Part shown: piece by piece, positions 28,068 to 61,302 of the stretch
Layout: each line of letters begins with the position of its first letter
Numbering within the stretch: position 1 is the first letter of the stretch
NCBI GenBank assembly: GCA_018697035.1
Contig: JABHSE010000004.1
Location: forward strand, 195,300 to 259,299
Reading direction: 5' to 3'
DNA: 64,000 nucleotides
Source: an archaeon
Lineage (GTDB): Archaea; Nanobdellota; Nanobdellia; Pacearchaeales; GW2011-AR1
The notes under the pieces: generated by a model
What the model was told of the DNA's origin: nothing
What the model saw: the letters and a program-made list of their open reading frames with translations, nothing else
The model's database searches: none
Program-made: the position numbers and the translations under genes

Positions 28068-28146
28068 GCCTGTATCGCATAATGGTATTGCACCGGACTA
28101 GAAACCCGGGCCCTTGGGCATCCCCGTTCGATTCGGGGTACAGGCG
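28068..28146 (+). tRNA. tRNA-Ser-like with anticodon AGA (possibly degenerate)
   Basis: Acceptor GCCTGTA/TACAGGC, T-arm CCCCG-TTCGATT-CGGGG, anticodon loop CTAGAAA, A31-C39 mismatch. Confidence 0.65.
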
Positions 28147-28282
28147 TTCTAGAATCGAATGGCTTGCCGTTTAAAGAAAATCTTATGATTTACTTTAGAA
28201 ATCTTCGATTTCGTGTCCGAGTTTTTCTAAAGCGAAGGCGATTTGCCCTTTAGGGTACTTGCGAAGCGTGGGGTACAGGCGT
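28135..28282. repeat. Structured insertion flanked by 13-bp direct repeats of tRNA 3' end
   Basis: GGGGTACAGGCGT at 28135-28147 and 28270-28282; internal core 28170-28238 matches 61174-61242. Confidence 0.85.
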
Positions 28283-40662: not shown

Positions 40663-40709
40663 AAAAACCAACCAAATCTTTAAAAACCAATTCTCCAATA
40701 TTCATTCAT

Positions 40710-40781
40710 GCCTCAATAGTATACTGGTTAGTACACGGCCCTGTCGCGGCCGAGATCCGGGTTCAATCCCCGGTTGGGGCG
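40710..40781 (+). tRNA. tRNA-Asp (GTC)
   Basis: Acceptor GCCTCAA/TTGGGGC, anticodon loop CTGTCGC, T-arm CCGGG-TTCAATC-CCCGG. Confidence 0.95.
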
Positions 40782-40829
40782 TAGTTAGGGCGTAGGTGGT
40801 TTTTTAAAGGCATTAGACGTGAGTATATT

Positions 40830-41987
40830 ATGAAACTAGACGTCCATGGGCACGAACAAAGATATAAACGTTGGAAAGAATATGTTCTGAAAGACGGTGA
40901 AGACCGATTATCTAAAAAAAATTCTGACACTTTATTAGCATTCATTTTTGATATGGAAGTTGGGGCCAACGTTTCTAGAAAAGCAAAGAAGGGTGGAAGA
41001 AGTTTTCCAAGGCTGAATAATATAAGACAAAGAATGATTCAAATGATGAGAGTGTTCGAAAAGAATGGATTAAATGATCTAACGAAATTAACGGAGAAAC
41101 AAGCGATGGATTATTTTAATGCACTGAGAACTGGCGAGATTAAAACAGCAAGGGGAGAGGTATACAAATCCGTTCAGGATTATGCAAAAGTTTTCAAATC
41201 CTTTTGGCATTGGTGGATGAAGTCACAAAGAAAAAAGGGAACAGCTATAATAGATATTACTGAGGATATAGATACCTCAAAAGACATGAAGCCTTCATTT
41301 GTTTATATGACTAAGAATCAACTCTACAATCAATATCTACCTTATTTTGAAGAAGATGAGCAGGTAATACTATCATTCGTTTTTGATAGTTTGATAAGAA
41401 GTCCAACCGAACTTCTAAGCCTGGAAGTCGGAGATTTGTTTGAGAAAGAGGGAGACCTTTGGGTTAATGTCCCAGATGAAATATCTAAGGTCAAAGGAAG
41501 GTTATTTAATTTGATGTATTGCGGAGAAGACGTAAAAAAATATATCGAAAGAAAAGGACTCAAGCCAAAAGATAAATTATTTGATTTTTCTCCAGAATAC
41601 TTCAATAGAAAAATGAAGAAAGTTGCCAAACAAATTTGGGGAGATTCAGTTTCTCATCCAAAAGCAGGAGGAAAATTCTCAGAAATTACATTATATTCCT
41701 TAAGACACTCTGGGAGCATTCATCTTAGAATGTTAGCGCAGGAACACCCTGAGGCCCTTAGTCTGGACACTCTGCGAGAGAGGGGCGGATGGAAGGACTT
41801 TAAGATGGTAAATTATTATACCGAGTTTATCGGACTAAGTGGAAAAATAGAGAAAGGGAAACTCTTGTTAAAAGAGGACAAAACAAGATTAGAAAAAGAG
41901 GTTGAAGAGTTAAAGGAAATGTTTGCAAGATTTCAAAGAGGTGAAGTTGTTTATGATACAGAAAAAGAGGAATACATTAAAAATTAA
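40830..41987 (+). CDS. Tyrosine recombinase / integrase
   Basis: Core-like SLIRSPTELLSLEVGDL, SLRHSGSIHL, ERGGWKDFKMVNYYTEF. Confidence 0.88.
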   Translation: MKLDVHGHEQRYKRWKEYVLKDGEDRLSKKNSDTLLAFIFDMEVGANVSRKAKKGGRSFPRLNNIRQRMIQMMRVFEKNGLNDLTKLTEKQAMDYFNALRTGEIKTARGEVYKSVQDYAKVFKSFWHWWMKSQRKKGTAIIDITEDIDTSKDMKPSFVYMTKNQLYNQYLPYFEEDEQVILSFVFDSLIRSPTELLSLEVGDLFEKEGDLWVNVPDEISKVKGRLFNLMYCGEDVKKYIERKGLKPKDKLFDFSPEYFNRKMKKVAKQIWGDSVSHPKAGGKFSEITLYSLRHSGSIHLRMLAQEHPEALSLDTLRERGGWKDFKMVNYYTEFIGLSGKIEKGKLLLKEDKTRLEKEVEELKEMFARFQRGEVVYDTEKEEYIKN

Positions 41988-60951: not shown

Positions 60952-61056
60952 TCCCTATTTATTTAATTTTCTATATAACCAAAACCTACAAGCTCCTAAT
61001 ATATATGATATATACCAAACAAACTTTTTTAAAACCTAAAATCAACAATCTTTTAT

Positions 61057-61128
61057 GCGTGGGTAGTATAGTGGTTATTATTCGACGTTGCCAACGTTGG
61101 GGCCCGGGTTCGATCCCCGGCCCGCGCA
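61057..61128 (+). tRNA. tRNA-Gly (GCC)
   Basis: GCGTGGG/CCCGCGC acceptor, CGACG-TTGCCAA-CGTTG. Confidence 0.95.
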
Positions 61129-61163
61129 TTTATTTTTTATACTTCTTTTAATACATGCTTCAT

Positions 61164-61302
61164 GCTTGGGTAGTTTAAAGGAAATCTTTGATTTTCTTTA
61201 GGGAACTTTAGTTCCCGTGTCCGAGCTTTTCTAAAGCGACGGTAGTGGTTAGAATCTGTCGTTGCCAACGATGGGACCGGGGTTCGAGCCCCCGCCCGCG
61301 CA
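61164..61302 (+). tRNA. Second tRNA-Gly (GCC) interrupted in D-arm by ~67-nt insertion
   Basis: GCTTGGGTAGT[insertion]TAGTGGTTAGAATCTGTCGTTGCCAACGATGGGACCGGGGTTCGAGCCCCCGCCCGCGCA; GGTAGT repeated at 61169 and 61241. Confidence 0.85.

Follow-up and report, generated by a model that had tools for sequence, protein, structure and literature searches.

A family of short hairpin elements associated with tRNA genes interrupts a second tRNA-Gly(GCC) gene in a Pacearchaeota genome

Results

An interrupted tRNA-Gly(GCC) gene beside an intact one

The window, meaning the whole 64,000-nucleotide stretch of archaeal DNA analysed here, contains two tRNA-Gly(GCC) genes side by side (Table 1). At this locus ARAGORN called copy 1 only (61056-61129). 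The second gene, copy 2 (61164-61302), is complete apart from 67 additional nucleotides in its D-loop, and the Rfam tRNA model, run at a lax threshold, aligns to it end to end, treating the insert as a gap, with 31.1 bits (the gathering score of the model is 29). When the two flanks are joined in silico, they yield a 72-nt tRNA that is called tRNA-Gly(GCC). Copy 2 is preceded by a TATA-like box, and the gene with its insert folds better than shuffled sequences (z = -3.3).

A sequence-only reading of this region had described about 67 extra nucleotides in a second Gly tRNA beside an intact copy, two hairpins and a T3-C70 acceptor mismatch. All of these were confirmed: the insert is exactly 67 nt long, with a junction ambiguity of 2 nt (TA), both hairpins, TAAAGGAAATC/GATTTTCTTTA and GGGAAC/GTTCCC, exist and are kept in homologues, and relatives with an uninterrupted gene have G3 in place of T3. 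The closing pair CTTTAG/CTAAAG that the same reading proposed had to be abandoned, since homologues place CTTTA in hairpin 1 and AAAGC in a local third hairpin.

Table 1. Coordinates of the two tRNA loci of the window that carry family A elements.
Feature	Position	Strand	Basis
Intact tRNA-Ser(AGA), adjoining the window's other family A copy	28068..28146	+	ARAGORN
H0: inverted T-loop copy of tRNA-Ser(AGA) (AATCGAATGGC), TT, T-arm 5' strand (GCCGTT)	28147..28171	+	Sequence inspection
Second family A element of the window, in split T-loop of partial tRNA-Ser copy	28172..28238	+	R1 hit 28170-28240, 93.5 bits
Partial second tRNA-Ser(AGA) 3' end from C56 (CGATT...GGGGTACAGGCG) with small hairpin insert	28239..28280	+	
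Intact tRNA-Gly(GCC), type I (copy 1)	61057..61128	+	ARAGORN/Rfam; same type in relatives G001, G012
Copy 2 tRNA-Gly(GCC), type II, 5' part (acceptor and D-stem 5' strand) GCTTGGGTAGTT	61164..61175	+	Matches intact genes in G014, G005, G009
Family A element, 67 nt, in D-loop between TAGTT and TAGTGG	61176..61242	+	Homologues in own genome and relatives; empty sites
Hairpin H1, TAAAGGAAATC-TTT-GATTTTCTTTA	61176..61200	+	Covariation: two-sided changes at 10/10 modelled pairs
Hairpin H2, GGGAAC-TTTA-GTTCCC	61201..61216	+	Covariation: two-sided changes at 6/6 pairs
Conserved GTGTCCGAG and hairpin H3 (CC GA GCTTT TCT AAAGC GAC GG)	61217..61242	+	Kept across ~40 copies; two-sided changes at 6/7 pairs
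Copy 2 tRNA-Gly 3' part (rest of D-arm to discriminator)	61243..61302	+	Rfam tRNA model match; intact genes of relatives

Two conventional identities for the insert were rejected. Above the gathering score, Rfam returned only tRNA matches in the region, which excludes a known Rfam RNA family. A tRNA-Leu/Ser chimera was discarded as well: GTGTCCGAG resembles the D-arm of a type II tRNA, but is a conserved part of the element.

Empty sites in relatives

Once joined, copy 2 is identical to the intact gene at 70 of 72 positions in both G014 and G005, and at 68 of 72 in G009, the genus median for tRNA orthologues being about 88%. Two positions differ from G014 and G005: position 3, where G has become T, and the end of the T-loop, where T has become C. 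Because these three relatives carry the tRNA of copy 2 uninterrupted, they represent empty sites, and the insertion is clean; the junction (TAGTT^TAGTGG) shows no target duplication beyond the TA ambiguity. A tRNA-Gly adjoins the thermosome gene in G005, G006 and G012 too, in conserved synteny, and another empty site is seen in G003, where the Arg-Cys spacer lacks the element. Judged by its relatives, copy 2 represents a long-standing gene of the genus (type II), and copy 1 is of a second type. The redundancy of copy 2 with the adjacent intact type I gene would make a clean D-loop hit tolerable, and from its G3 to T3 change copy 2 is now probably a young pseudogene.

A structured repeat family

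As its homologues indicate, the insert is one copy of a structured repeat family not previously named, hereafter family A. Its members are about 65-80 nt long, have the common ends TAAAG...GAAGG, form three hairpins and encode no protein. DNA and covariance searches of genomes that are incomplete MAGs, with counts that depend on one model seeded from four copies, recovered about ten copies in the window's own 809-kb genome and about 40 in total, all in a single genus of Pacearchaeota (DPANN archaea). Numbers of this order place the insert far from chance. Strong matches occur in G002, G008, G010, G011 and G012, all of the same genus, with a patchy spread, and nothing convincing was found among the other relatives searched outside the genus. 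An apparent bacterial occurrence in LSNS01000020.1 (L066), labelled 'Parcubacteria', was rejected, as this contig has archaeal genes and an archaeal-type tRNA-Leu unit and is probably misbinned; two tandem 120-bp family A units adjoin its tRNA-Leu. A viral origin was also rejected, IMG/VR yielding neither exact matches nor a relative of the integrase of G015 (see below).

In the alignment of 40 copies, 22 of 23 pairs show two-sided (compensatory) changes and 97.7% of cells are paired, figures that lean towards structure because the alignment was fitted to the model. Shuffled controls and slid structures all score far below the family A structure, and H3 and part of H2 emerge even when MAFFT aligns the copies without the model. 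Since G-U pairs outnumber A-C mismatches by 29 to 7, the element strand is probably the strand that folds. Between genomes, copies linked to the same tRNA show a slightly higher similarity than expected, a value attained in 22 of 2000 permutations. Some copies look old and vertically inherited, and their persistence with structure could mean function.

Copies are bound to tRNA genes and to partial tRNA copies

Thirty-seven of the 40 copies have an intact tRNA gene within 150 nt and the remaining three have one within 350 nt, while all ten confident copies in the window's own genome adjoin tRNA genes. Throughout the genus the sites are found almost only inside tRNA genes or partial tRNA copies, and in both orientations, ten of the 40 copies being antisense to the tRNA.

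Most copies interrupt the T-loop within an incomplete repeat of the adjacent tRNA's 3' end, the tRNA fragments measuring about 18 nt. In the commonest layout, the intact tRNA is followed after a few nucleotides by an inverted copy of its own T-loop, a short loop (often CTTG) and the T-arm 5' strand; then come the element and a repeat of the same tRNA from C56 to its 3' end. It is thus the partial second 3' end that takes the element, and the intact tRNA remains. The inverted T-arm copy (H0) tracks the adjoining tRNA (CAAATC, CGATTC, CGAATC), even in the odd GGTCC of one tRNA-Ser. Entry occurs after GGTT in one orientation and after GGAT in the other, which corresponds to the second T-loop nucleotide on either strand.

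Family A also occupies full second tRNA copies, such as the Gly gene of the window and a tRNA-Met with a clean T-loop insertion (L053). Tandems of elements occur at L054, L034 and L066, one copy is nested in a B-type cassette (L006), and one lies on the 5' side of a tRNA together with a copy of the tRNA 5' end (L016). A mirror layout, in which a partial tRNA 5' end cut in the D-loop precedes a cassette and the intact tRNA, is shared by L016 and by two loci upstream of tRNA-Gly, L173 (G013) and L174 (G006). A third small cassette type (CCCTTTAGGG-TA-CTTGCGAAGCG), which sometimes adjoins family A, is present in partial tRNA copies at 28239-28280 of the window, at L127 (G003) and at L051.

A downstream repeat of the tRNA's own 3' end was found for 19 of 37 tRNAs in the window's own genome, or 18 once Ser TGA is removed, whose 'repeat' is merely the next tRNA-Ser gene. 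The same census gave 7 of 31 tRNAs in G003 and none of 34 in G017, which belongs to a sister genus, and its reversed-sequence control gave none.

Other occupants of the same sites

The sites of family A are also occupied by family B, a single long imperfect hairpin present in 12 of 16 genomes of the genus and in none of 170 others. Thr-linked family B copies of G000 and G003 differ by compensatory changes. A second tRNA-Cys copy with a B-type cassette near position 26 was observed in G000 (L006 1264-1338) and G008 (L054 8114-8330); the nested family A copy mentioned above lies in the cassette of the former.

In G015, a 136-bp unit made of tRNA-Glu, H0, family B and the tRNA 3' end stands at both ends of an apparently integrated element of about 4.9 kb (L242 = G015:C24, L243, L244), which encodes a reverse transcriptase and has an integrase-like ORF; its near-identical repeat of 80 bp is likely the template/variable region of a diversity-generating retroelement (DGR). 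The segment beside it encodes a large surface protein and a likely toxin-antitoxin pair, with family B units between. The window itself has a tyrosine-recombinase domain (41358-41825, in a 400-aa open frame, with a weak match to PF00589) about 570 nt past tRNA-Asp (40709-40782), a possible remnant of an integrated element.

Discussion

These comparisons identify copy 2 as a recently disrupted, redundant tRNA and its disrupter as a member of a tRNA-bound hairpin element family. Between the two possibilities that the sequence-only reading had raised, a mobile element disrupting the gene or a noncanonical intron, the former is borne out by the existence of a repeat family with empty sites, clean insertion, tandem and nested copies, and both orientations. 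We consider it likely that family A is a genus-specific, non-autonomous hairpin insertion element that targets tRNA loops and is moved by an enzyme acting in trans.

Under the mechanism that we propose, family A would insert at approximately (T/A)T^(C/T)(A/G), without target-site duplication, into tRNA loops (the T-loop on either strand, the D-loop for Gly), inside other such elements or next to itself. Insertion into a hairpin-folded single strand is suggested by junctions that are clean and have no core in common, and by the symmetric position in the loop; where single-stranded DNA extrudes a tRNA arm as a hairpin, the enzyme may attack its loop. In an essential tRNA present as a single copy, an insertion would survive only together with a local duplication by template switch, because the intact tRNA is then regenerated upstream. 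Such a switch would leave behind H0 (the inverted T-arm), followed by the element and the second 3' end, a step that we infer solely from the layout.

Two candidate movers were rejected. Neither a Y1 HUH transposase (searched in G000, G002 and G008, which are the genomes richest in family A and are incomplete) nor a reverse transcriptase was found in the family-A-richest genomes. Tyrosine recombinases occur in most genomes of the survey, whether family A is present or not, and no autonomous relative with family A ends was seen.

Such recombinases lead to the alternative that the copies are attachment-site DNA or excision scars of integrative elements at tRNA 3' ends, the cassettes being integrase arm sites. 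Integration of this kind classically leaves tRNA 3' ends as direct repeats, and the family B unit of G015 does flank an element with an integrase-like ORF. However, the Gly, Met and nested copies were inserted cleanly, with no direct repeat of the tRNA, the junctions GGTT^TAAAG and GAAGG^CGA have no core common to the target, and neither family lies near the integrase loci of G000, G008 and others, the G015 contigs excepted. As the covariation moreover points to a folded single strand, we regard this explanation as unlikely.

Slightly less probable again is that the cassettes are domains of a tRNA-linked trailer RNA under selection, which might for example regulate tRNA processing. The very strong covariation, the excess of G-U over A-C that makes folding of the element strand probable, and the compensatory changes in Thr-linked family B would all be expected of a functional RNA, but the need to move can also keep structure, and a mobile element better fits the patchy distribution between species, the ten of 40 copies antisense to the tRNA, the nested and tandem copies and the insertion in a full tRNA.

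The intron, in which the 67 nt would be removed by the tRNA splicing endonuclease or another activity so that copy 2 works, we hold to be very improbable: the 70/72 identity of its exon body to intact orthologues, the upstream TATA-like box, the ordinary tRNA introns of the same genome and the complete tRNA left by removal of the insert (for the Gly copy only, not most copies) speak for it, but bulge-helix-bulge (BHB) geometry (3-nt bulges, 4-bp helix), the check suggested for the junctions, is absent from other copies and from all three possible Gly junctions, which offer at most two of four central pairs, most copies sit in unspliceable tRNA fragments, about a quarter are antisense and copy 2 carries the T3-C70 mismatch. 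A random distribution of the element outside tRNAs, which had been named as a further argument against a processing role, was not seen.

Returning to the non-autonomous insertion element, we tentatively raise a broader and doubtful proposal, that of a new class of protein-free elements that would recognise the folded shape of tRNA arms, enter the loops of either strand and provoke a local repair by copying and inversion through which the tRNA is rebuilt, with several unrelated cassette families served by a common enzyme in the genus. If true, tRNA genes become safe homes for such elements.

Short hairpin elements without a known enzyme, such as the Rickettsia palindromes and mitochondrial GC clusters, are a long-standing puzzle, to which this archaeal case brings a sharp target (tRNA loops), precise empty sites and strong covariation; with several independent families at the same sites, target choice and mechanism become testable. 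In a reduced genome, about half of the tRNA genes can have such insertions next to an intact copy, which is a warning that tRNA annotation of DPANN genomes will contain split pseudo-tRNAs.

Comparison with known systems

Integrative elements that use the T-loop or 3' end of tRNAs through tyrosine recombinases leave an intact tRNA and a displaced 3'-end copy. Family A units differ from them in having about 100 bp between the repeats, no integrase, many different tRNAs, and clean cassette insertions as well. Archaeal BHB introns share with the Gly copy a position inside a tRNA gene, but the BHB is absent here. Non-autonomous derivatives of IS200/IS605 (PATE/MITE) make no target duplication, have hairpins near both ends and insert strand-specifically after a short motif. 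Family A resembles them in all of these features, and is MITE-like in its dispersed copies with defined ends and its empty sites in relatives; it is unlike them in its preference for tRNA loops, and in that no Y1 transposase was found in G000, G002 and G008 and no IS with matching ends was seen.

In the open-licence papers searched, we found no description of tRNA-loop hairpin elements in DPANN. The GC clusters of yeast mitochondria and the fungal double-hairpin elements are short mobile hairpin DNAs with fast spread and merging of units (PMC4478555), although GC clusters, unlike family A, are mitochondrial, show a putative 2-nt (AG) target duplication and do not target tRNAs (PMC4478555). Compared by description only, the Rickettsia palindromic elements (RPE; Ogata et al. 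2000/2002, as cited in PMC6649704) are short selfish palindromes inside genes of a small genome, and like family A are short hairpin elements within genes. RPE are bacterial and described from protein-coding genes, whereas family A is archaeal, consists of three separate hairpins, is tied to tRNA loops and comes with a partial duplication that regenerates the tRNA.
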